Position numbers and translations under genes: made by a program. From Tetraselmis striata (Eukaryota; Chlorophyta; Chlorodendrophyceae; Chlorodendrales; Chlorodendraceae), in the NCBI GenBank assembly GCA_006384855.1, contig VCJN01001388.1:62001-126000 (forward strand): a stretch of 64,000 bases of DNA, in the 5' to 3' direction. Positions 2,151 to 40,320 of the stretch are shown piece after piece. The notes beneath the pieces were generated by a model that saw only the letters and a program-made list of their open reading frames with translations, searched no databases and was not told the origin of the DNA. Within the stretch, counting starts at the first letter, position 1, and each line of letters opens with the position of its first letter.

Positions 2151-3830
2151 TTATTGAGTACGGTTTGCGCCGCTAGTTCTATCCATTCCCCTTACTTCAC
2201 ACCCGCAAGTTAGAACCGGTAGTATACATGTTTTAACGACACACACACGCACATCCAGAGGAATATTGCCCTGTGCACCAAGTAATAATACCGAATTGAG
2301 CACCTCAATGGCGCGCTTACCCGTCTTAACCCAGTCAAATACTATGTGCCGCATACTTAAATCCGAGTTACTTAATGACTGTACCCAAATACCTATATTC
2401 ATTTACAACCGGTAACCCCCCCCCTCGCTCCCCCCCACCCCCGCGCGCCAAGCTACCATCGGGTAGCTTGTCCACGAAACGCGGTCTCGTCGGAATATCG
2501 GCCTAATGTCATTACCCCACACTTAGAAGTCCCCCAAACCCCATAAAACAGTCCTTCGCCCACTGGGAAAAGTGGGCAAACGTGGCGGCATGAATGTTAT
2601 CGAACGAGCTTGTGAGACCAACAACGTCGTCCGGGTATAACTGACATGGCACCCGCAGCAGTGCGTGGTAGGTAGCATCACCGCTAATGTGTCGGCGCAC
2701 CATGGTATACCACACCCTAGATGTTCTACTCCATCGAACATGTCGCTAATAAATAAATATGTTAAATAGGATGTGGGGAGTGGGGCACCCTTGTCGGAGC
2801 CCACGCGCTATGGGTATGGGGTCTGATAGTGCTCCCGATGCCACCCTTGTCTTAACCTGTAACATACTATCCGTATATACAGTTTTAATGACTATACGCA
2901 TATCACCCGTAAACCCTATGGCTTAGAGTTTTAAGAATAAAAGCTCATGATGTACGGGGTTATATGCCCTCCTAAAGTCAAGAAATCCCGCGTAATATGT
3001 GGATAGACATAGCACTTGGCGACGAGCCGCGATATCGAACAAGCTGGCGGCTTGCATGGGACCCTCCTCATTCCGCATAGAACCCGCTTGCCAACGGCGG
3101 ATTATCCCTTTAGCCCGGCAAACGTCATGCAAGCGTTGGGTACTTACGGTCATAAGGTGTGTCATAGCGGCACCCATAATCGTAATACGCGTATAATCGT
3201 CCATCACGGTCGAGCCGCTTCTTTGGCACCGATACTACGGCCGAGCTACGCCATTGCTGGGGGAAACCGTTCGTAGTCCATATCCCGTTTTAAATTAAGA
3301 TCATCAGTGTCTTGCCAAAATGGCTAGTCGGGGCGTATATAGCCGATTTTAAAACCTCCGCAGTAATCCGCCCATCCAGCCCCTAGGCCTTGCAATTTTT
3401 TTAACGCCTTAGAGACTTGACGAGTTCCTCCCACGCTATATAGACCCATGCTATAGGTCAATGGGTGAGTGACGATGTACCATGGCGGTGTTCCCACGCC
3501 TCATGGTATATCGCAACCCGTTGTGCTAGAGGGTGGGGTCGCGCAGCAGCTCCCAGCTCCCGATAGGGCCACGCCCATCACGCATTGATATCGCCCGGCT
3601 AGGTATGAAATACTCCCGATACCGGATCGCATACGGCTGGCTAGTCGCTCGCGCCCTCGAATGAACCTTGCCCCTTCCGGAGAGAACGCGCCCACTTCCA
3701 GAACTCCCATCTCCCACCACCCTTCTTAAAATCTTGGACCGCTGTCTGCACGGTCCGCTCCCTCTGGTCGAGGCGGTTATTACGTAATAGTGTCTGGACC
3801 CTATGCCGTGCATCAGCATAATGTGCCAAT
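2151..3830 (-). mobile_element. Non-LTR (LINE) reverse transcriptase relic
   Basis: Three reverse-strand frames follow in the order of a LINE reverse transcriptase. The 2923-3207 frame has an RRWQAGSM block and then FLDFRRAYN-PVHHELL, matching the motif usually read as FLDFKKAYDSV-H. The 2512-2804 frame has LYPDDVV at the YADD active-site position. The 2151-2402 frame ends in VVKTCILPVLTCGCEV, the typical thumb-region block. The 3641-3829 frame resembles the linker between endonuclease and RT. Frames are broken by shifts, and the catalytic YADD reads YPDD, so the copy is dead. The upstream 5' half up to about 4.5 kb is too degraded to assign. Confidence 0.75.
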
Positions 3831-4944
3831 AACGCTGCCTAGAGCGGCATCATTTAATTCCCGAGGGCCGCCCCTAGTCCCCCGGCACGACAAAAAGGCC
3901 ATGCGCCGACGATTATCGCCCCTATGATAGACCGTTGCATCGGCGGCCCTGGGCAACGACGCCTGGACTTGGTTGCAGCCCATACCCCGCGCGCCGCCGG
4001 CCATACTACTTGCTTGGATACATTGGTCGGCGCCGGTGTCTAGGGACCCCCCCCTCCCAAGGGCCCGCCGTCGGTAGGTGGATCATCCAAAGGAGCGAGC
4101 ACCGCGAACGGATTACCGGTGACGAAATCATGGAACGGCTTCGGCCCTTCAGAAGGAGAGTCGCCGTGGGCCAATTTGGGAATGGACCTTGCAAACAAGC
4201 GTTGGTTCATGCATGGGAGGTAGACGGGTATCCTCAGGGATAGCGGTCACATGGGAAGAAAACATGACAGGGAAGTGATCGGAGGTGTCCCAAGAGTAGT
4301 CCACCCATGCCGAGGGCGAGGGAGGGGGGGGGGGGGCTATGGTTGGTTGGGGGGGGGGGGGGGGGGAGGGGGTGCAATTGAGTGGTCGGCGTTCGCGCGC
4401 CGATACGTTCCGCGGCCGCATGGGCACCGCCAACGCCGGAGTTGAGCCGCCAACTCCCTTTCATCCATGTTCCACTGCTCCCCCCCCCCCCCCTCCCCCC
4501 CCCCCTTTCCCCAACACGATCAAATCGCTCGGACAACTCGTACAAAGCCGCGCCAACTCTGCGCGCATGCGGTCCCGGTGTGTTTCCCCATGTGAGCCGG
4601 TGGGCGAATAGGCCGAGATAAATATTGTGGCCGCACAGTCACTGCTCCCCCTCCCCCCTCACCCGGACAAATGTCCATCATGGGTGGGGCGCGCCGACTG
4701 CCCGCGCCCGATACGGCGACCGGGCTAACACACAACACCCACGTTCCGATGCAACGCGGTCACTGAACGAAAAGTACTCGGAGTATCCATTAAAACGCAC
4801 TCGCATATTGGTCGCCATAACCGCGCTCTCCCGAACGAGCATGACATCTACAGATCGCTCGATAAACATCGCGCCAACATCCTCCACCTTAGGACATCCT
4901 ATTTACATTAAACGTCGCAACGCACAAATGGGCCGGCATAGGAG
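3831..4944. other. Degraded repeat DNA with poly-G and poly-C tracts
   Basis: No supported gene. Overlapping open frames at 4149-4545 are artefacts of long G runs (4321-4371) and C runs (4481-4505). It may include the decayed 5' half of the reverse-strand LINE. Confidence 0.4.
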
Positions 4945-5396
4945 GGAAGGGGGAAGGCGGCAAGGGGTGGAGAGGAGGGGGAGGGCGGGCGGCGTGGTGA
5001 TCCCATTACGAGCGATGTCCCCGCGAGTACCATCCCCACCGGCCTTCAAAACGTTGTAAACGCTCGCCGACATGCGCACCCTGCCTTTGGGTATAATAAT
5101 AAACATCAAAGCGCACTAGCCCATCCCGCTCCAACACACTACCGATCTTCGGAATGGCCGAGGGCCGGCCATTAAACCCCCGAACGACGCGGTTTTAAAA
5201 GGCATGTAGTGGCGAAGCCCCCCCCTAACAACACACACTACGCATGGACGCCCCAGCGTCCCCAATCCGGTGCCCAACCGTCCAGGGGCGAACCCCGTCA
5301 CTATGACGGCTGCACCCGGTGGCGCGCGGGTGCCCATCCCGGGGCCAACCCTGCCGGAGCAACGGTTATGTTACACCGGGCGGGAAAACTCGGTAA
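4945..5396 (-). repeat. Dispersed repeat C, inverted partner of 60507-60950
   Basis: The reverse complement matches 60507-60950 across most of its length. Shared blocks include GGCCGGCCCTCGGCCATTCC, a GGGCTAGTGCGCTTTGATGT block, and the block around GCGAGCGTTTACAACGTTTTG. Both copies contain a C/G-rich low-complexity stretch at the same relative position. No coding potential was recognised. The two copies face in opposite directions 55 kb apart. Confidence 0.75.
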
Positions 5397-5950
5397 TGCG
5401 GTAGGGTCATGACAAACATTCGAGGCTGCCGAGAGCTACGAAGAGAGCGGCCATGTGGGCTCCATGACATCCAAAGATACTCCTCCTGGGCCGGTAGACG
5501 CCGGTCATCATGCTTGAGGTACTCGTTTGTAAGGTCGGTACTCATGGGAAAGAGCCCATGCACTCGAATGACCGGTCGAACGGCCTCGTAACCAGACTCT
5601 GCTCGTTGCAGTAGCTCTGGCGCCGCGAGGTAGTCGTCCTTGTCACTCACGGATTTTGCTCCGACACGGCCGCTTTGGGCTAGCTCTAGCAAGTCGGGAC
5701 GCTCTGCGGCTCCCCCGCTGTTTGTCGGCTGTCCTGCGACGCGCTGCCCGGAACCAGAGCCATGTACTCCGTCCCCGTCAACAACACGGTCATGAGCCGT
5801 CAATTGAGCTATCGCTGTTCCAAGCTCGCGCAGCAATGTAGACTGGGCCTTCATGTATACTTGTAGCGATTTGAGCGTGAGTCGACTAAACGACGGGTTC
5901 TTCTCCATATGACATGATGACACACGGAGGTACGCGGATGAGAATTTCAC
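5366..5950 (-). CDS. 194-aa ORF of unknown function, probably element-derived
   Basis: The longest clean frame of the first 6 kb. It has a mixed, charged composition with no recognised domain. It sits directly beside dispersed repeat C and upstream (in its own sense) of sequence that recurs at the right end of the window, so a transposon accessory ORF or a relic is more likely than a host gene. No splice signals or promoter were identified. Confidence 0.2.
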   Translation of the reverse strand: MKFSSAYLRVSSCHMEKNPSFSRLTLKSLQVYMKAQSTLLRELGTAIAQLTAHDRVVDGDGVHGSGSGQRVAGQPTNSGGAAERPDLLELAQSGRVGAKSVSDKDDYLAAPELLQRAESGYEAVRPVIRVHGLFPMSTDLTNEYLKHDDRRLPAQEEYLWMSWSPHGRSLRSSRQPRMFVMTLPHYRVFPPGVT

Positions 5951-5959
5951 ACACGGGTG

Positions 5960-6180
5960 GTGAGCCGGTCGTGGTCTTGAACAACATGGGGTGACTTTGC
6001 TCGCAACAAGTTGCGAGGCAGTTAATCGTTGCGTTTAATGCAGCGAAAGTGGAAGATGGCATGCTCAACTGTTATTTATGGCTGCTTTTATGTTTACTCG
6101 TGCTGCACCCAAAAAGGGCGCAACGACAAGTGCCTAGTAATCCGTACCACTTGGCAGCACGGTAGCCGGAAAACGAACAC
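5960..6180 (+). repeat. Repeat D, direct copy at 63690-63940
   Basis: Blocks such as TGGCTGCTTTTATG, ACTCGTGCTGCACCCAA and AAGGGCGCAAC occur in the same order in both places. The right-hand copy carries a short open frame (63680-63943) with a hydrophobic C-terminal stretch, while this copy is interrupted, so neither is a supported gene. Confidence 0.65.
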
Positions 6181-6697
6181 GGCGAGGCATCCCAGTTTAA
6201 ATACATAATATCCACCTTCGCACAGGTAAGGATAATACTATTCATCTTATATATGGATGGTACCAGTACTGGTGCGAACTAAAAAAAAGCAGCAATAGTT
6301 CCACCTACTACTAAAAGCACATGCTATATACCATCACCTCCGATGATCAACCCACGACCATGGTTGCCCAACGCCACCTCAGCCGTGCGATTCGCTTGCG
6401 TGACTTCGTGGCCCTCGATCTCAACTTCCATCGTACTGGTGCCCCGACTTGATACCCTGCGCATGCGGGCCGGGCTCCCTATCGCTTTCTAATCGGATCA
6501 CGAGTCAGCCCGCAAGATTCCCCGGGCACTGGGCCTTTGCCCGCGCGGAGGTTCCGCGCTTGTCACTTGCCTTGGCCCCACGTGTGGTATTGATCCCTTA
6601 TGGCTTCGCTCTACGGATGGCTCGAACCGGAGCGCTACGGATTTCATCGTGGACCATCTACCCATATGCCCCGTAGCGAACTACAGTCAAGCACCGC

Positions 6698-7402
6698 ATG
6701 CATACCGCTTTGAAGAATCTGTGGGCATCTGTGGCAATTGATGCGGGGGCGGTGCTTGACCGGGACCGTTCGGGAGCCGGCGACTTGACCCTTGAGACGA
6801 GTGGGCTGCGCCCAGCGGACCGCTCGCGGCCGTCGGACTTGACGGTGGCGGGGTGGGGGGGGGGGGGGGGGGCGTGCGATTACATGATCGACTTCGCGTG
6901 CGTGTCCTCCACGACCCCCACTTGGAGCAACAACCCCCGCTGGTGCACCCGGGGAATCGCGGCGACCGAGGCGGAGCAAGGTAAGTTGGCAGCGGACCGG
7001 GCGTCTTCCGCCCCAGTGCACGGTGTTGACCGGTACTACCCTTTTGTGGTTGAGGACCGCGGCCGTCTCGGGAAGTCCGCTTTGACGGTGGTCTACATCT
7101 TCGCGGTGCTGTTGGATGTGCGCAACTTCCCTGGCGGTCCTTCCGCCCCGACCTCATGCTTCCTTCGTGGTCAATCCGTTCAGGCACTTCGGAACTTTGT
7201 CGCTAGCCAACCTGATGAGTTCCGCCGTCACCTGTCGCGCACACGGCGGGGGCTGTTGCAACGGGTCTCGGCTTGCGTGCATGGTACCCTGGGCGGCATT
7301 ATTATTCTCTCTGCCGGTGTGCAGATGGCCAAGTCTGATGCGTGGGCTCGTGCCCATTCTGTGTCTTCTCATGTTAATGCTTCCACCTCGCAGTCGCTGT
7401 AG
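6698..7402 (+). mobile_element. LINE ORF2 C-terminal end (5'-truncated copy 1)
   Basis: A continuous 234-residue frame. It contains SGLRPADRSRPSDLTV, an AATEAEQGKLA block and FVVEDRGRLG, followed by an arginine-rich tail. This matches the region after the RT thumb in many plant and algal LINE ORF2 proteins, where 'D-v-v-NP ... AA--AE--K ... F-PfvvE--G-lg' is usual. A G18-type tract at about 6849-6871 encodes a Gly run inside the frame. The tail after the stop (to about 7470) is conserved with the second copy at 55008. No upstream RT core in the same frame was found, so the copy is 5'-truncated, the usual outcome of target-primed insertion. Confidence 0.7.
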
Positions 7403-7470
7403 AGGACCTTTCTGATTGCGCATTTTTGGTGATTTCCTGATATCGCCTGCTGCTGCTAGCTCATGTAATT

Positions 7471-7967
7471 AATATACGATCACCTGAAGGCGGCACGCAT
7501 CCCGCAGGAGGCGGGATGAATGAGTGATCGATGCGCGCACCGTTCCGAGGCCGGGCCACGCGTGCACGTGTGTGCGAGGGTGATCCCCGGACGACGTATC
7601 CCCGAAAACGTTCCTCGTACGGCGTAATGCGCAGCTCAAAGCTCAGTTTTGCTCAGGGTTTGCGCGCTTGAGGGTGACACAAAAATCTGATACTATGCGC
7701 GGTGAAGAGCTGGCTTCGTCGCATCAGCAGCCGGAGTACGGGTACTACCGGTATCGGTACCTGTAGCGACAAGCAGCGGCGCGCGCTTGCGAGCGCTGAT
7801 GACAAAAAATGTATTATATTTTATGCTTGAATAATCCACGAGCAGTGGCTTGTCGCCACGGAGACCCCGCAGAGCAGCGACATGGTAACAACGTCGAACG
7901 AACGAAGCTGGACAAGGCAAAAACGCAGAGACTACAGGCCGGTTCACAGGCAAGTAGGGTAACAAAT
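7471..7967. promoter_or_regulatory. Upstream region of the coiled-coil gene
   Basis: About 0.5 kb between the LINE tail and the next start codon. An AT-rich stretch near 7811-7825 (TATTATATTTTAT) stands out in GC-rich surroundings about 150 bp before the ATG and could be a core promoter element. This is inference from composition only. Confidence 0.25.
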
Positions 7968-30700: not shown

Positions 30701-33697
30701 CCTTGACCCCCTCCCCCCTCCCCCCCCCCCCCCCTCTTCCCCCGGCTGCGGCATGGCCCCTGAGGAAACATGCCGCCACGTGCGCAGGAGCGGTATCGCG
30801 CCAGGCAGGGCCACGGCGGCGCCAGCGCCATCAAGCCCTGTGACAAGACGCGACACCCATCCCGGCCGCCGGACTTTATCCAGATCGGCAACCGCTCCCG
30901 CCGCAACGCAAGCAAGCTGAAATCGCCCGCCGCCACGACCCCCACGCAGGAGCCGGGACGCCGACCCCGGGAAGGCTGCACTTCCAGCGGCGGCAGGAGC
31001 CATGCTGGCCAGGCGAACCCCAGCGACCAGGCGGTGGCAGCAGCGGCAGCTGACTCTCAGGGCACGGACATGCCGAGGTGAGACATGCGCACTCTTGAGC
31101 GCTGTTCATCCCTACTGGGCCGTGGGGCGTCATGCGTCGCATGCTGGTTACTGTGCTTGACGAGGCGCTGGCGTGCCCCCCTCCCCCGGGGCCCCTTTGG
31201 CATCCAGGAACGTCAAGCGGTATGGGAACAAGCACTGCTGGGTGGTTCTAGACAAGAGCAAGGAGCCAGGCGCGGATGCGGATGTCCACTTGGGCCGCTA
31301 CACGCTAGACGAGCTTCAGCATGTCCGCCGCCCTGCCAATGCTACCCCCTGTCATTCATCATATAACATCCAATGTTCTTACCCCCCCCCCCCCCCCCCA
31401 CATACACACACCAAAAAGAGGAGTGCATCCCCAAGCATCGATTCACCGAAGCATCTCCCATACGTGCCTTCCAATGTGTGCTCCGTGCTCGCCGCTAACG
31501 GGATCAAATGCGCGCCCCTAGGCTGCGCACGCTGCGGACATTGGGCTCCTGCTCCTGCGGCGGCAGCAACGCGGCCTGAACTACCAGGCGCGCGTGTATG
31601 CTGACCTCATGGCGCGGAACGGGTGCCCCCTGGCGCATTCCGCCGACTCGGCGGCGGCGGCGCCAGCGCACCAGATGCCGGAGACACGCCTGCCCGCCGA
31701 TGAGCTGCAGCTCGTCTTTGAGGACGTTCACCAGCGGCTGCGGGCCGGCCCCCACGCGCGCGCGATGCTCGACGACGGTGCAGCCGCCGGGCAAGGCGGC
31801 GCAGGGCACCCGCGGCCGCCTGCCCGCCAGAACCTTGGCCGCCGCGGGCGAAGGTCTCAACGCGCAACAGCATCCAAGTGGGATGAGGTGAGGGCGGCAG
31901 CCCTCCCTCATGCTGACCGTGCTGTTCCGCGCGGAGGTGGCCCTGCTCTCTGCGCCGGTGGCATCGGAACTGGGCGTCAGCGGGTGCGATATTCCTGTGT
32001 TGTGGTGCAGGCGCCCGTGGAGGGGTCGGCTGCGATGGATCCGTTGGAGGGGGGTGACTTTATCAACCTTGTGACGCCCTGTGGCAGCGACTGCGAGGAG
32101 GGGGAGGAGCCCGAGGCGCAACCGGAGGAAATGGCGGAGGACGAGGGTGAGGAGGGGGGCGCGGGCGAGGGGCAGGAGAGGGGCTCGCCCTCCAGCGCCT
32201 CCAGCTTGGCGAATGCGTTGTCTGCCGCAGAGCATGGCGGCGCTGGCGGCGCCCTGCCGCCCGCCTCTTCTCTAGTGGTACAGAGCACCAGGACGCCAGG
32301 GGAGCCAGAGTCCAGCCGGGCGGCGTCCGCGAGCAAGTCCGGCGACAAGGGCGCCGTGCCCCACGACCACGACCAGGCGCGGAGGCGAGCGCCCCCCTGC
32401 CCCGGGCGTCCTCCCGTGGGAACGGCCTTTGTGAAGCACCTCGAGACGCGCGGGCGAGGCGGAGAGCGCCAGGAGGTCGAGGTGCTGTCGGCGGGCTTTG
32501 TGCTCAAGGACTTCATGGACGCCACGGACGACGTCGCATCGCTGGCGCGCTCCGCTGACAAGGCCATCAGCCTGGTGTTTGCAGACTGTCCGCGCGCCCC
32601 GCCCGCTGGACAGGCTGGCAACAGCGCCGGCGCCGGCGGCGAGCCCTGGGGCCGGCGGGAGTTCACCCGCTCGGTGGTGTTGCCACTGATCGTCAACGGC
32701 GGGAGCCTGGCCGGGGTGCGCTTCGCGTGGTTCGTGGCTCCCGCCCAGCTGGGGGCGCTGCTGGACGTCTGCGAGAGCCACAGCCTGAAGTTCGAGACCT
32801 TCACGTGGGTGCAGCCTCCCGCAGCCGATGCTGGCCGGGGCGTGTGCTGCAACACGGAGCACTTTGTGGTGGCCTGCCCTGAGGGGGAGGACCTCGCTGC
32901 GTTCTGGGAGGAGGCCGACCCGGGCCGCTACTGCACGGGTCAGCACTTTGACTGCGTGACCGCCGCTGAGCGCGTGCGGGGCGGGTGCGGCGAGCCGCTC
33001 AACCCGCGCCAGAAGCCGGTGGGCCTCTTGATGCGCGTCCTGGACATGTGCGTGGACGAGACCCCGCTGGTGGTGGACCTCACGTGCGGAACCGGCACGA
33101 TGGCGGTAAGCGCTGACGCCCCGGCCGCTGGCACAGCGCAGGATTCTGCCGCATCATATGTCCAACCGTACAAACACAAACAGTCTGCACATAAAGGACG
33201 TTTTTGACCCCCTCCCTAATACCCCCCTCCCAATAATAGCGAATACATCACGAATATTAAGACGCGAATGAGCAAAACACTTCATATTTTGCCCCCCGCG
33301 AACCGTATGCAATCGCATACATTTAACGTGCCATTCAAGCTGGGCTGAACTCAGTTCTTGCGGTCGGTGCTGATGCTGGTGATGTGTGATTGAGAGCCAG
33401 CCACCTACGAGGACCATCATCGCATGGCATGGCTTGTCTGTTTTCAAGTTCTAAATTACACTGCTGCTCAGGTCGCCGCAAGCGCAAGGCGCTGCCGGTC
33501 GTTAGCACCTCCGCCGTCGGGAGCGGCCGTACTCGGGGCTGGGTGTGCGCCCGCACCGCCCGCCGCCGCCGCACGTCATTCTGGTGGACGTGGACCCTGT
33601 GCAGCTGGAGGCGGCGAGGGCGCGGCTGTGCAGCTGGGGGAAGGAGCGAGGCCGGCGAGTGCTGGATGGAGACTGGGCTACCGGCACGTGGACCTGA
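24754..33697 (+). CDS. SUVR-like SET protein fused to a beta-class amino-methyltransferase-like domain
   Basis: Twelve phase-consistent exons: 24754-25909, 25998-26065, 26978-27036, 27208-27433, 28406-28573, 29683-29936, 30547-30637, 30788-31077, 31208-31322, 31522-31887, 32011-33105, 33506-33697; 1359 residues. The N-terminal 385 residues are low-complexity, with two GSTRRRLSL repeats and a SUMO-interaction-like IVLSSSEDED (about 267-276). Exons 2-4 give DIANGKE, PIPVFNGIDDEP and FQYI, the start of a SUVR-type pre-SET. SET follows: GWGLRCCADIPAGTFVCEY, GNVSRFLNH, ELTYNY. The C-terminal third carries, in beta-class order, LVFADCPR (motif IV place), LNPRQKP, VDLTCGTGT (motif I) and LVDVDP (motif II). 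Expected role: chromatin regulation in the nucleus. Odd points: the pre-SET and post-SET cysteine clusters are missing, NHSC reads NHDD, and DPPY reads DCPR. A weak donor at 31323 joins the halves; they could be two genes, although the phases support one. Confidence 0.72.
26066..26977. other. Long intron of the SET gene with a TATA-like motif
   Basis: 912 nt. It holds a (GAGA)n purine stretch at 26295-26350 and a CTATATAAAG motif near 26513-26522. The latter could mark an internal promoter for a shorter transcript that starts just before the pre-SET exons; this is speculation from one motif. Confidence 0.35.
28165..28305 (-). repeat. Dispersed element E copy in a SET-gene intron
   Basis: The reverse complement reads CCTGCCTGCCCTGTCTGAAG, then GTGGACGAAACTATA, a TATAGGCTGCATGCAAGCCC block and TATAGGAGCGTCGGCAC, in the same order as the other copies. 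Confidence 0.7.
28740..29580. other. AT-rich part of a SET-gene intron
   Basis: Most of the 1.1 kb intron between the two SET exons. The sequence is much more AT-rich than the exons, with no supported frame or recognised repeat. Confidence 0.4.
29965..30120 (-). repeat. Dispersed element E copy in a second SET-gene intron
   Basis: The reverse complement reads GACCTGCCTGCCAGAGGTCA, AACGTAGACAAAGGC, TTGCATGCGAGCCCGATTC and TCTTATAGATGCGTTGG, matching element E block by block. Confidence 0.7.
30353..30425 (+). other. tRNA-Arg-like sequence (possible SINE head)
   Basis: TGGCACAATGGATAGCAT fits an A box of tRNA-Arg type, and TGACTTCGGGC could be an anticodon arm with TCG. The B box region (CATTGAACTCG) is poor, and an acceptor stem does not pair convincingly. 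It lies in a SET-gene intron. Either a decayed tRNA-derived element or chance. Confidence 0.25.
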
Positions 33698-34558: not shown

Positions 34559-37500
34559 TCACGCCACGCAGCCCGGGGTCAGGGGGGGATCCTCCGGCCG
34601 GCACGTCTGGCCGTCGATGGATGACGCCAGCGCAATGTCGCGGACGTCCAACAGGCCCATCTTTGAGAGGTCGCCCTCGTCCAGCTGCCCGTACGTCATG
34701 CGGCGCAGCAGGTCCAGCTGCTGCTGGAAGTCCACCAGAAAGTAGGACACAAAGAAGGTGTAGGGCGCCTCGCCCGCCGGGTGCTCCACCTGCCCGGCTG
34801 GTGACCGGCGAGCACATGCCAGCCGCGGCGTCTCGAGCGAGATCCAGCGGACCCACTGGCAGTGCTCCGCCAGCACCCACACCGCCGCCTCCTCGCCTGC
34901 CGCCTCGGGGACCGTCCACAGCCGCACGGTGCTATCCAGGGACGCACTGGCCAGGTGGCGGCCGTCCTCGGCCCAGGACAACCCATGTACAGCTCCCGTG
35001 TGGCCGGACAGGGTGGAATGCAGGTGAAGCGGCCGCCCCTCGCCTGGGACCTCATGCACCAGCACCACTGCATCCTTGCTGCCACTGGCAAGCAGTCCCG
35101 CGGATGACCAGGCGAGGCTGGACAGGTGGTGCGTGTGCTCGGCCATCTCGCGGACGCCCACCAGCTCCAGCGACACCGACTGCCCGAGCGCCCACGCGCT
35201 GACGGACCGCCGGAGCGTCCACACGCGCACGGTGTTGTCCTCCGACCCACTGGCCAGGAGCACCGTGCCGTCGCTCTTCTCCGTCCAACAGGTCAGCTCG
35301 ACGACGTCGGTGTGACCCTCGAGCAGCAGGCCGTCCCCGCCGCCAGAGCCCACTGGCAGAACGGCGACGGTCTTGTTGGAACTTCCGGCGCTGATGAAGC
35401 GCCCGTCGGCGGACCAAGCCACACCTGCACCACAGACATGCAAGCACCGGGGTCAGTACTTTGCCACAGTTTCACCGTCACGACATGTATCCAACTCAGC
35501 ATGGTATCCGTGCAAAACCTCATTTGGTGGTAATATTGTGTTGGATGGATGAAGTCTATGTGCGCGTCCTTCCGCTGAATATTCGGAGTGCACCGATAAT
35601 ATCACTACATATATACATATATATGTGTGTGTATGTACATGTACATGTATATATATAAATGTATCTAGATGTGTATATATGAAATATTAATACATTCACA
35701 AATATGTGAAATACATATAAATATCATTGTGTTTAAAAAACATCTAAATAAGATATAAAAATATATGTTTTTTATCGAATGATAGCAATGAATCAACGAT
35801 CACTTTCGAGCGGAAAGAGTGTCAGCATGATGTTATGGTTTAAGCGAAATCAGTAGCGGGAGACGTACCGCGCAGCTTGGAAGAGGAGTCCAGCTCTGCC
35901 GCGGCTGAGGACGTTCTGTTCCGTTCCGTGTTGCGCCACTGGTGGGTGACCTCCCAGCTGCCGGTGGTGTCGCTCCATGACCACACCGTCATCCCCGCAA
36001 AGTCGTCGCCCGCTGCCAGCATGTCGGCACCGGGGCTGATGGCCACCGAGCGGGACGGGACGCTTCGTATTTCCGACTGCGGGATGCGGAGCGCGCCGCT
36101 CAGCTCGAACGCCCCCACGACTCCAGTCTCCGGGTCCACCTTCCGCCGCCATACGCAGACGTAGCCCCAGTAGGCAGACGCCGCGTAGGTGTGGCCATCG
36201 GCGCTGAAGTCGCTGCCGCGCACAGCAAATTCCTCGGGATAGTACCCAGTGCAGTTCATGAAGAAGCGCTCGGGACCGTCCAGGGTGAGGTCCTCCGCGG
36301 CACGCCAGCCTCGCACCTCGTTGGACGCGGTGCCCATGACGAGCACGTCGCTGTGCTGCGGATGAATGTCGACGGAGAAGAGTGCGACATCTCCGTCCTC
36401 GTACGTCGCCTCTCTCGTCAGCGTCGCTGTGCCCGCCACGTCATCCACCACCACGCTGCTCACGCCCACGACGTGCGCCACGGTGGCCAGACTCTTCCCA
36501 TCCGACGACCAAGCCAGGTCCCTGATGTCGTCAGGGTGCGGTACCTCCTTGCCAAGCAGGGGCAGCTCAGCCGAGTCGCCGTTGCTGTCGAGTTGCGGCG
36601 CCGCCCACAAGCACAGCTCGCCCGTATCACCCGTACTCGCGAGAATGGTTCCATCGGGGGACCAAGCAACGTTGGTGATGTCCGCGGTGTGGTTCAGTCC
36701 GATGGCCTGGAGCATAACTGGGGGCTTGTTGTCGTCAAAGTACCACAGCTCGACCATGTCCGCAAGTCCACCAGAGGCCAGCAGTGGCATGTGCGGCGCG
36801 AACGACAGCGAACGTATCGCGGCCGGATTTTTAGCGCCCTCTTTGATGCGCGTCACAACCTCCTGGAAGACTACGTCGCCGCTGACGGTGCCGCTGGAGA
36901 GCGCGTCCTTGATGCGCCACACCCTGATGTGGCCATCGTCGTCGCTGCTGGCCAGTAGAGCGCCGTCGCCAGACCAAGCAAGTCCAACGACATCGTTCCC
37001 GTGGCCAGTCAGACGGAAGTGGTTGACCCAGCAGCTGCTGCCTGGCGGCTGTCCCCAGACAAACACCGAACCGACCGAGCCGCAGCTGGTTGCCAGCAGA
37101 CCAGTGTTGCTCCAAGCCAGAGCCCTGATCTGCTTGCCATTGCACTTGTCCAGCACTGCTGGCTCCGCGGTGCTGGGGAGCGGGAGCTCATTTGGCGTAC
37201 GCGGCTCTGCCATCACCCTGCACAGAGCACAGGCACCCACTATGATCAGAATGCCTAGCGCGTAGGTGGCACAAGCTTTTCAACGACGGTGCCTGGCCGA
37301 AGTGTTATGCCACCCTTCCAGCGTTTTTTTCTGTTCTTTTATATTCTGGTATCGTTCTACTCATCATTGCTGAAACAGTGTCATCGGAATACACTGTTTG
37401 GATGCGCTATATTGAGGATTACGTAATTACTCAGTAGATAGTCGCTAGTCGTACCGCCGGCACCACCCCGCCGGTGTCATCAGGCGTCGAAAAAGTACAC

Positions 37501-40320
37501 GTAGTAATCGTTGCCTTTATGATTAACTCAATCCTATTGTTGGGCATCGGTACGCATTCCTTTATCGGTATATATATGATTACAAACAATGCACTCATTG
37601 CTTTCCGAAATCAATTTTCAAACCGACTAATTAGATGTATCTGTCACCTTTCTTTCAAAATATTCCAAACCCTCAACACATTTCCTACTCCATTCTCTTC
37701 CTGTTCTATTCTAAATGCCGCACTTTCGCCCTATTATACTGCTGCGTCAGCAATTAGAAATTTGCAAATAAAACCATTGCACTGTGTAGACCCATACGGT
37801 ATTGTCAAAGCCAAAGGCAGAGCCATGTGAGAGTATAGCCTACAGTACTGTCTGGCACACCATCGCAATGCTGCATGCATGCCACTCCCTCCCCTGCGCA
37901 TATTGCGTATGTATATAGATATATAATAAATGTATAATAGATGTATAGATATATATATGTTGCCTGCGTGGCCCCCGCCGCTCACCTGATCCGCGCTGTG
38001 CCGTCGTAGCTAGCGCTTGCCAGGAACTTGCCGCTGGGGTCGAAGGCCACGCGGGAGACCCGGTCTCCGTGGCCCTTGAGGTCAAAGAACCAGGGGCGCT
38101 GCATCATGTAGCTCACGGCCGCCGTCAGCGCGGGCATCACCAGGGATGGGTAGCCAATACACTGCGCAATCTCCGCAGCGCGCAGCAGCGCATGCAGCTC
38201 CGCTGTCTCCCGCGGCTCGGCGATGTCAGAGAGCAGCAGCACCGTGGCGATGGCTTGCTGCCTCACCGCCACTTTCTGAAGCCTCACGGCCTCGCGGGTC
38301 TTGCTCTCTGCTTGGAGGTAGGACACCCCGGCGAACACCGCCAAGATGGTGATGACCGCAAAGAGCGCGATGCCTCCGGCACGCAGCAGCTTGCGCCGGA
38401 AGCGCGCCTGGTGGCTGGAGGCAGCCACGTAGCCGAGCATTTGCTCCGTCGGCTCCGGGAAGGCGCTGGCAGCCGCGGCCACCTTGACCCAGTCCTTCCA
38501 GTACACCGCTGCAGAGCCCTTCAGCAGCATGTGGAGTGGCCGCCCCGCAGCGTGCCAGGTATCCGCGCGCGTGCACAGATCCGCGTGCTCCTTGCTGTAC
38601 GCCAGGTCCTTGCTCACGTACTCCCTAAAGCGCTCATCCACGGCGCCTGCGCCGAGATTGGCCTCGTCGATGTCTCTGCACGGGCAGAAGTTGATGGCGG
38701 AGAGCAAGCAGAAGATTCGGCGGACCTCCTCCTGCGAGAACGGCACCGCCTTGGGTCCGAATGGCTGCCCATCGTAGCGGCACAGGGCGGTGCCTACAGC
38801 CGGCTCGCGGCTCCACGCATGCTCGGGGCCCTCCACCATGGCCAACATCTCCCAAGCATCCTGATCCAGAATACCGAGCACAAGAGGCTTATTATAATGA
38901 ATGGCGTATGCCAGCTCCTGCGTGTCACACAGCAGCGGCATGTGGAATCAGTGCGATGTGGCCCTGACTACACGAGATGCCGCCAGCATAAAAAGCACAG
39001 CATACAGCACCAGCGAAAAACACGCTCGTACCTCAAGGCAGTTGTAAGACAGCAGGTACTCGCGATCGATGATGCAGACCATCTGTGGGCGGCATGTCAC
39101 ACCGAGCAACGTCATGGCAAGTTGTCCATTGGAAGCAGTGCCGATTTCGACACCTTGCAAGCGTAGGATGTCGAGCAGGTCAGAACATAGATGGGACCGC
39201 AGAGCATGTTTCAAATTGACAGCAAATTCGCGCACAGCATGGGACCCACCTTTGCGCAGCTTTCGATGGCCTCGCCGATCTCCTTTCTCCAGGGGACAGG
39301 CCCTTGGGCGCACAAATCCAGAAAGTCCGCCCAGATCACCACGCCCTACGCAAATCGTCGGTAGCAAATAAGGGAATGGCCACTTTGATCAGCATGTGTC
39401 CCCAGCCAGCGGATAGCAACTGTCCTTCCTCCTCGATCACTACCATTAACGCAAAAGGACGGTCCACTCACATCGTTACCCGTAAGGGCAGCACAGAGTC
39501 GTTTCTTGCGGAGCTGAGACTCCTGCCCACGCCTGAAGGGTGAGGGGGTGGCAAGGGCCAAAATCAGCACGTGTCTGCTGTAGTAACTCGCAGTACACTA
39601 TGATAACGTACGAGAGGGGGCGAGGTATCCGACGCACATACATGCCCTTCAGCTTGATGGTACGCGCAGTATCAGAAGCTGCTCGATCCGGGTTCGATAA
39701 ATGGAGTTGGCTTATCGTACACAGAATAAATCGTAACGATATGTCCCCAACACACGCCAGGCGAAAAGACAAGTGTTAGTGGCGCCGTTGGAATGTCCGC
39801 TCGGCCAAGGGCGACGAGCTATGCACACCGCCATCGATAGACGTGAAGCCAATCATGCAAAGAAGAGAGCTACTGGCATTAGGATAAGGCTGTGGTACCA
39901 GCAGTGGCTGAAGAAGACCTTCGACACGGCCTGCGTCTCGGCGGTTCTGCCGAGGAAGGCCCCTCGCGTAGCGGCGCCGGACGAGACCCATCGCGTCAGG
40001 TTGCTATCGCGTCGACGCTCCTCCTCAGCGCGAAAGGTTTTGTCGTCTAAATTCCAATGCTCATCTGACGAGGCCGTCTTGCTGCCCTGCTTCGACAGCG
40101 GACTCCCCTGCTCGTTGATGGAGGTGGTCAGCCTCTGCGTGTCCGCGGGGGAGAGTGGCTCCGGCAGACTGCCGGCGTCGTACGGCGGCAAATTAACACT
40201 GCCCTGTAGTGGGAGCAGCTCGACGCCGGCTGACCAAAGGATGGGAGGCGAGTTGCGCCGCTCGGCCGTCACTGCCGGCTCGTGCTGACTCTCCTTCACG
40301 CCCCCCTCCTTATCGCTCAT
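34559..40320 (-). CDS. TIR - transmembrane - double WD40 propeller protein
   Basis: Seven phase-consistent exons: 40320-39899, 39532-39472, 39345-39250, 39082-39032, 38917-37986, 37217-35869, 35424-34559; 1258 residues. The N-terminal 130 residues are polar and disordered-looking. A TIR domain follows: KVFFSHCW (about 134-141), GVVIWADFL, PWRKEIGEAI, then SYNCLEELAYAI (205-216), where E211 sits at the catalytic glutamate of TIR NADases. The next linker has YVSKDLAYSKEHADL (310 on) and FPEPTEQ, a pattern I associate with bacterial TIR-WD40 proteins. A hydrophobic helix (about 388-410, IALFAVITILAVFAGVSYL) is followed by a charged helix and an ALLRAAE segment. About 14 WD40-like repeats (487-1190) would make two seven-bladed propellers. 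Inferred role: membrane-anchored sensor whose propellers bind a ligand and whose TIR cleaves NAD+ or signals. No homologous neighbour or operon is present; its start is the first Met of exon 1. Confidence 0.85.

Follow-up and report, generated by a model that had tools for sequence, protein, structure and literature searches.

The window analysed here, a 64,000 nt stretch of the genome of the green alga Tetraselmis striata, carries on its minus strand a seven-exon gene whose predicted product joins a TIR domain, a linker, a single transmembrane helix and an array of WD40 repeats. Homology of this protein to bacterial proteins, and with it the bacterial type of its architecture, is almost certain. 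As the best explanation overall, we lean slightly towards a single-pass membrane receptor with a TIR that cleaves NAD+ (a TIR-NADase), akin to bacterial TIR-linker-helix-WD40 proteins. The gene most likely belongs to a membrane TIR receptor family of bacterial ancestry that has expanded in T. striata.

Gene structure and bacterial relatives

A search with residues 1-330 of the bacterial protein P0006 returned 2117 proteins at E <= 0.001 among 7994 scored. Precomputed domain lists showed a propeller-type Pfam family in 115 of the 120 matches listed; as P0075, P0076, P0078, P0085 and P0104 list no such family, not every bacterial match is a TIR-WD40 protein, and P0116 lists no TIR family. Where named, the bacterial matches were cyanobacterial or belonged to Solirubrobacteraceae. 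A helix was present within the first 1000 amino acids (aa) in 119/121 bacterial proteins, P0005 and P0006 displayed the same domain order as the alga, and the cyanobacterial members that we looked at often contained three TIR-linker units. With the TIR, helix and WD40 regions removed, the linker alone (five algal against 121 bacterial proteins) was aligned by hhalign with a probability of 97.6 (E 4.4e-12, a single comparison), whilst 100 column-shuffled control alignments reached at most 4.7. An earlier note on this DNA, made from the sequence alone, had described the architecture as typical of bacteria; the homologous linker and the abundance of matches to the bacterial TIR-linker-helix part bear this out. 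Taken as a whole, the interpretation given in that note is partly supported.

The AlphaFold model of P0006 (predicted local distance difference test, pLDDT, 87; predicted template modelling score, pTM, 0.72) comprised an alpha/beta N-terminal domain, a helical linker and a long helix, after which strands continued to residue 1026, fitting tandem propellers. The best Foldseek matches of the model of P0001, an algal paralog, included the tandem-propeller proteins AIP1, Utp21 and Apaf-1, which agrees with two propellers but proves little. Some of these comparisons count against the favoured reading: the P0001 model is of low confidence (pLDDT 53, pTM 0.37), the post-membrane stalk, which we do not regard as a defining feature, had no significant bacterial counterpart (hhalign 2.2, with 22/121 bacterial stalks), and the match of the C-terminal tail (CxxCG..LT..ER of the P0006 type; 57 with 24 bacterial tails, controls at most 1.05) is only suggestive because it is confounded by overlap with the last WD blade.

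We rebuilt the coding sequence (CDS) from seven exons on the minus strand, obtaining 3777 nt and 1258 aa with one terminal stop; all six introns are GT-AG. Exon 1 (39899..40320) begins at the first methionine of the open frame, in the context GGCAACCATGAGC, and encodes an N-terminal tail of about 130 aa and the start of the TIR (FFSHCW). The TIR continues through exon 2 (39472..39532), exon 3 (39250..39345; WADFLDL..GPVPWRKEI) and exon 4 (39032..39082; MVCIIDREYLLSYNCLE). Exon 5 (37986..38917) contains the TIR end, linker, transmembrane helix, stalk and first WD40 repeat, followed by WD40 repeats in exon 6 (35869..37217) and by WD40 repeats, C-terminal tail and stop codon in exon 7 (34559..35424).

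In the protein, the TIR domain occupies aa 134-227 (38867..39921, spread over exons 1-5) and matched Pfam TIR_2 at aa 135-228 (E 2.2e-8, 35.1 bits against a cut-off of 28). The linker occupies aa 265-392 (38372..38755), with a conserved core common to bacteria at aa 314-378 (38608-38414). A hydropathy scan detected one strong hydrophobic helix, at aa 393-411 (38315..38371; hydropathy 2.48 over 19 aa), and the post-membrane stalk follows at aa 412-489 (38081..38314). The WD40 array spans aa 490-1181 (34793..38080, exons 5-7; Pfam WD40, E 1.7e-50) and the C-terminal tail, conserved in P0001, aa 1182-1258 (34562..34792; DFQQQLDLLRRMTYGQLDEGDL). We counted 14 WD-like repeats by eye, in agreement with the number in the earlier note, whose coordinates, exon number, protein length and domain order also held when the gene was rebuilt and scanned with Pfam and for hydropathy. 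The observation of an intron-bearing TIR-transmembrane-WD40 gene is thus confirmed.

Base composition and a paralog both back the exon model. The proportion of guanine plus cytosine is 65.4 % in the CDS and 81.4 % at third codon positions, against 45.5 % in the introns, which argues against a chance reading. P0001 is 63 % identical to the window gene over the covered part of the TIR-linker and has the same intron positions (CLE|EL in phase 0, exon 5|6 in phase 2 and exon 6|7 in phase 1). An intron after CLE, CLK or CLQ lies in phase 0 in the window gene and at the loci of P0126, P0001 and P0004.

Paralogs in T. striata and the origin of the family

A search of the T. striata genome (a 224 Mb assembly) with the window TIR-linker gave 77 matches (106 of 468 first-look candidates scored), which we grouped by hand into 38 places including the window gene. 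What the earlier note had seen as one gene is thus a member of a multigene family. Some of these match over a short part only, and at least five pairs are near-identical and probably allelic, so the number of genes is below 38. Among 24 of the 37 other places, read with near-identical pairs included, WD40 repeats were found downstream of the TIR-linker in 21: 16/20 by a repeat model, L032 by Pfam and 4/4 further places. L023 displayed one weak WD40 repeat and L040 none.

Three paralogous loci match T. striata protein or transcript sequences residue for residue across introns. P0004 (EukProt jgi/Tetstr1 TSEL_026073, Tetstr1 being the JGI name for Tetraselmis striata) corresponds to L035 over 1993/1993 residues in eight exons, P0126 (an MMETSP transcript marked complete) to L029 over 1379/1379 residues in ten exons, and P0001 (a spliced JGI protein) to L021 over 1097/1097 residues in five exons. 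All seven introns of P0004 fit fully; the best junction at one of the nine P0126 introns fits only 17/21 residues, and a GT-AG pair was not found for one of the four P0001 introns. The source sequence of P0001, at 4264 bases, is shorter than the 4934 bases that the same protein spans in L021 (positions 2549-7482), and therefore derives from spliced RNA. These matches support the claim that the gene is no contaminant, and they show the TIR and WD40 exons on one transcript in the paralogs. The concern that the two sets of exons might belong to separate transcripts is answered for the paralogs but not for the window gene, whose own protein was absent from the protein database matches of the TIR-linker search.

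The near-identical L038 and L039 (C224 and C2104) differ by an extra 2.2 kb at the start of the WD40 array in L039, which has 14 repeats to the 9 of L038; repeat number may vary between alleles. Mean repeat identity was 0.52 in P0004, 0.59 in L039 and 0.16 in the window gene (over the five repeats found by script). To judge from these sequences, some members look like fast-changing recognition arrays and the window gene like a settled receptor. In the allelic pair L035/L036, the ratio of non-synonymous to synonymous substitution rates (dN/dS) was 0.09 for TIR and linker and 0.41 for WD40, with 59 differences in 1505 intron sites. Positive selection on the WD40 repeats was not seen in this single pair scored; amino-acid differences clustered at two repeat registers (10/44), a hint only, as the registers were chosen post hoc.

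Other features of the paralogs were recorded alongside. L022 (G000:C2495:41080-51079) carries a TIR-linker-helix followed by leucine-rich-repeat (LRR; RNI)-like exons and no WD40; LRR_6 scored only below the Pfam cut-off, and no transcript ties the LRR-like exons to the TIR-linker. L035 (G000:C1817), which encodes P0004, contains some 17-21 similar WD40 repeats by script, mostly in one exon, and in P0004 these give way to a stretch rich in proline, then to an LNR/Notch domain and more C-terminal sequence. In P0003, P0126, P0127 and P0128, some WD40 repeats are separated by inserts rich in Cys (LGWNATSWKDCSQC and LGYTAASWDTTSPYSCC in the case of P0127), a feature that would be in keeping with an extracellular location. 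Stop codons interrupt one matched TIR-linker stretch of L037 (G000:C2168), which may be a pseudogene unless the match crosses an intron. Eleven more TIR_2 places lie outside the TIR-linker matches (C2592, C40, C1400, C765, C828, C645, C2490, C1704, two in C200, and C2273), and the TIR pieces of L002 and L003 had no solved-structure match.

For the origin of the family, we built a tree that took in 18 of the 29 algal rows together with 45 bacterial ones (47 were drawn from the 121 at even steps and by name, and two without a clear helix were dropped). Algae and bacteria were split by a 100/100 branch; under midpoint rooting L032 was the first of the algal rows to branch off, the remaining 17 grouping at 99/97. 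A profile scan of prokaryote species genomes with an algal-only alignment gave one weak TIR match to the algal form, so that no recent donor is in view within the limits of the short patterns it used. We consider transfer from bacteria to the alga likely, inferring this from numbers (thousands of bacterial proteins against few algal ones) since the tree is unrooted. For that reason the acquisition from bacteria proposed in the earlier note, as opposed to the reverse, is not shown. The bacterial-origin reading is further weakened by the derivation of nearly all bacteria in the tree from one bacterial query, and by the dependence of the prokaryote scan on either of two short algal patterns, through which a donor could be missed.

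The unrooted tree and its long branch between algae and bacteria would also suit an ancient eukaryotic architecture passed down vertically, or one that bacteria took from algae. The introns and large family speak of long residence, and a close prokaryotic relative was not found in the pattern-limited scan. Such a history is nevertheless unlikely, given 2117 bacterial-type matches against seven algal-type proteins, three of which match the T. striata genome exactly while four come from ENA/JGI sequences. A protein search with all 6899 candidates scored gave four matches, query included, at a limited sensitivity that may have missed other eukaryotic members.

L032 (G000:C613:96599-106598) consists of a 1054-aa frame without introns that encodes TIR, linker, helix and WD40; next to it, in the same run of long open frames, lie an 838-aa WD40-like frame and a 363-aa frame. 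L032 is possibly viral, a retrocopy or an old gene. Its lack of introns, gene-dense setting and deepest position on the algal side are what carriage of the gene or family by a large DNA virus would predict, yet a retrocopy or old intronless gene would fit too. Two pattern-limited scans of viral contigs, one with the L032 protein, found no relatives, the capsid model PF04451 gave no match (nor did its control), and PF16903 matched only one fragment with a stop, on another contig; viral carriage is accordingly very improbable. The fragment itself (G000:C2306:108648-109034; PF16903, E 1.7e-24, one internal stop) is a giant-virus-type capsid domain.

The earlier note had placed the window gene between ordinary eukaryotic genes, which was not borne out: ten long frames scanned yielded one weak match and no firm identity. 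This match, to N6_N4_Mtase (E 0.0078, below the cut-off), lies in a long open frame at 31522-33204 on the plus strand; it may be one exon of a spliced gene that runs towards the receptor gene from the opposite side.

Membrane orientation and predicted function

With one helix only, TIR and WD40 would lie on opposite sides of the membrane if that helix spans it. Of 119 bacterial proteins, 107 had more lysine plus arginine (K+R) in the 20 residues preceding the helix than in the 20 following it, and 5 had fewer; the preceding stretch was also the richer one in 7/8 algal proteins. Across these eight algal proteins, 39 glycosylation sequons lay after the helix against 21.7 expected (Poisson 0.0005, or 0.003 without the near-copy P0128), and 5 before it against 7.1 expected. 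P0004 has an LNR/Notch domain after its WD40 repeats (E 2.7e-8, also in the precomputed Pfam list). The charge pattern, the sequons and this domain suggest a cytosolic TIR and WD40 repeats on the outside, and we regard the outward position of the latter as fairly probable. Several observations weaken this assignment. The window gene has equal flank charges (K+R 5 vs 5; acids 0 vs 2) and only 4 sequons after the helix against 2.4 expected (P 0.22), 4/8 algal proteins of this set are incomplete at the N-terminal end, and P0002 ends in a tail that resembles intron read-through.

In eukaryotes, WD40 propellers are mostly found inside the cell, and the balanced charges of the window protein would fit a cytosolic WD40 array with the helix as a mere tether. 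The protein would then work within the cell as a scaffold or as a death effector comparable to STAND proteins that carry WD40. This arrangement seems improbable to us given the topology imposed by a single spanning helix, the positive-inside bias in bacteria (107 vs 5) and in seven of the eight algal proteins, the surplus of sequons downstream of the helix, and the presence of an LNR domain in P0004.

The predicted catalytic glutamate, E211, is the first codon of exon 5 (38915..38917, in NCLEEL), an assignment based on alignments and family conservation. Printed alignments put it in one column with the E of AbTIR (WTNYEL) and that of Cat1 (WCWDEL), the latter also being aligned by the algal profile alone. 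We take the glutamate in question to be E208 in AbTIR and E642 in SARM1. An eight-sequence alga-bacteria alignment shows no variation at the C and E of the C..E motif, and the glutamate column in 29 algal rows contained 23 E, 4 gaps and two other letters at exon junctions; L026 has the E, because its next exon starts QEL, and in L043 the exon bearing this position is outside the covered region. The essential glutamate of BtpA/BtpB is located in WxxxE (PMC7188309). The Trp of WxxxE is replaced by Asn207 in the window protein, a point against the favoured reading. By analogy with other TIRs, the window TIR is nonetheless rather more probably an NADase than not.

Under the favoured membrane receptor reading, the TIR would face the cytosol and the propellers would face outward, at the cell surface or in an internal lumen. 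TIR domains would be brought together when the propellers bind a ligand or cluster, and the assembled TIRs would cleave NAD+ via E211. The resulting cyclic-ADP-ribose-type signal or loss of NAD+ would trigger defence or the death of the cell. All of this, from clustering and NADase activity to defence and cell death, is inferred from the TIR family as a whole, and by that analogy we give a role in defence or cell death an even chance. At E <= 0.01, no PADLOC family matched the algal TIR-linker, and NCBIfam gave no match either; when P0005 and P0006 were compared with defence-system models, their best stretches fell within the TIR, reaching no further than residue 149. As no defence model matches the algal TIR-linker, an immune or cell-death role, which the earlier note suggested, or an anti-phage one is not shown.

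TIRs can signal by assembly alone, and the protein might instead serve self/non-self or mating recognition, or environmental signalling, with the TIR as a scaffold or mild signal-maker. The data contain no pathogen link, and the well diverged WD40 repeats of the window gene (0.16 over 5) are what a receptor with a single fixed ligand would be expected to show. Retention of the catalytic glutamate in the family rows covering the position runs counter to such a role, as does the strong constraint on TIR and linker in one allelic pair (dN/dS 0.09 vs 0.41 for WD40). Family size and repeat change (9 vs 14 in L038/L039) look like recognition repertoires, although they also fit self-recognition. On balance we find a non-defence role doubtful.

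Tentatively, these observations can be combined into a fuller picture, which is possible but falls short of probable: T. striata would possess a repertoire of surface TIR-NADase receptors, neither nucleotide-binding leucine-rich-repeat receptors (NLRs) nor Toll-like, with a polarity opposite to that of Toll-like receptors (N-terminal TIR inside, C-terminal WD40 outside) and a whole architecture obtained from bacteria, then expanded and diversified. Repeat arrays would differ from one near-identical copy to the next in some members, and one member may have exchanged WD40 for LRR. If true, a receptor family of a green alga is built on a TIR architecture of bacterial type, the plant lineage has a class of TIR receptor outside NLRs, and the system offers a test of how a eukaryote domesticates a possibly lethal NADase. 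A small DNA virus of T. striata, TsV-N1, is known (PMC4517135), so the defence hypothesis is testable in a laboratory system.

Comparison with known systems

A published description of a TIR-WD40 family in Tetraselmis was not found in the literature searched, mostly without subscription papers. A survey counted 16 chlorophyte TIR domains (PMC7075850), and none of four conserved plant TIR groups included chlorophyte TIRs according to PMC9806590. A EukProt-based atlas of eukaryotic TIRs (preprint PMC13142454) leaves several eukaryotic clades uncharacterised and may contain these algal sequences unnamed; the words WD40 and Tetraselmis were not found in its main text. SARM1-like TIRs of green algae, possibly different genes, are also named there. 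Bacterial conflict systems are covered by PMC7159879, PMC8195603 and PMC10907252, and NB-ARC-WD40 proteins are described from Pyropia (PMC6928737).

Among algal proteins, the TIR-NB-ARC-WD40 proteins of Chondrus crispus likewise combine TIR and WD40 in one chain, and a transmembrane-type domain is reported in many of them (PMC7145615, PMC9806590). Compared by description only, they have an NB-ARC ATPase, whereas none was found in the window protein: NB-ARC was not among the best 25 of its 38 Pfam families. Plant TIR-NB-LRR proteins share the TIR with its catalytic glutamate region but have NB-ARC and LRR, neither seen in the window gene, which has a membrane helix instead. Animal Toll-like receptors are also membrane receptors with the TIR on the presumed cytosolic side; their order is LRR ectodomain, helix, TIR, whereas the window protein is reversed, with the TIR first and WD40 in place of the LRR ectodomain. 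SARM1 shares a TIR with a WxxxE-type glutamate, but its ARM and SAM domains were not seen in the window protein. Dictyostelium TirBCD is a eukaryotic TIR reported as gained from bacteria, and one of its proteins, TirC, is a toxic NADase with a predicted membrane helix; there the TIR was transferred without known regulatory domains, and WD40 is not mentioned (PMC13142454).

Of the solved structures, only that of the CRISPR-associated TIR protein Cat1 (PDB 9mud) matched the profile of the algal TIR-linker at E <= 0.1 (E 2.5e-4). No WD40 was present in the match. Cat1 is, to our knowledge, not known as a membrane receptor. The layout of the window protein was otherwise met only in bacteria in this analysis, which suggests a kind of receptor undescribed in plants and animals. 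The bacterial TIR-linker-helix-WD40 proteins (P0005, P0006 and P0107), for which we found no family name, have a TIR, a homologous linker, one helix and WD40 repeats, all in the same order, at about 20-25 % identity to the window TIR-linker. Their positive flank before the helix recurs in 7/8 algal proteins, with equal charges on both sides in the window protein. The algal form differs in an insert around INFCPCRD, an N-terminal tail, introns and, in P0004, the LNR domain.

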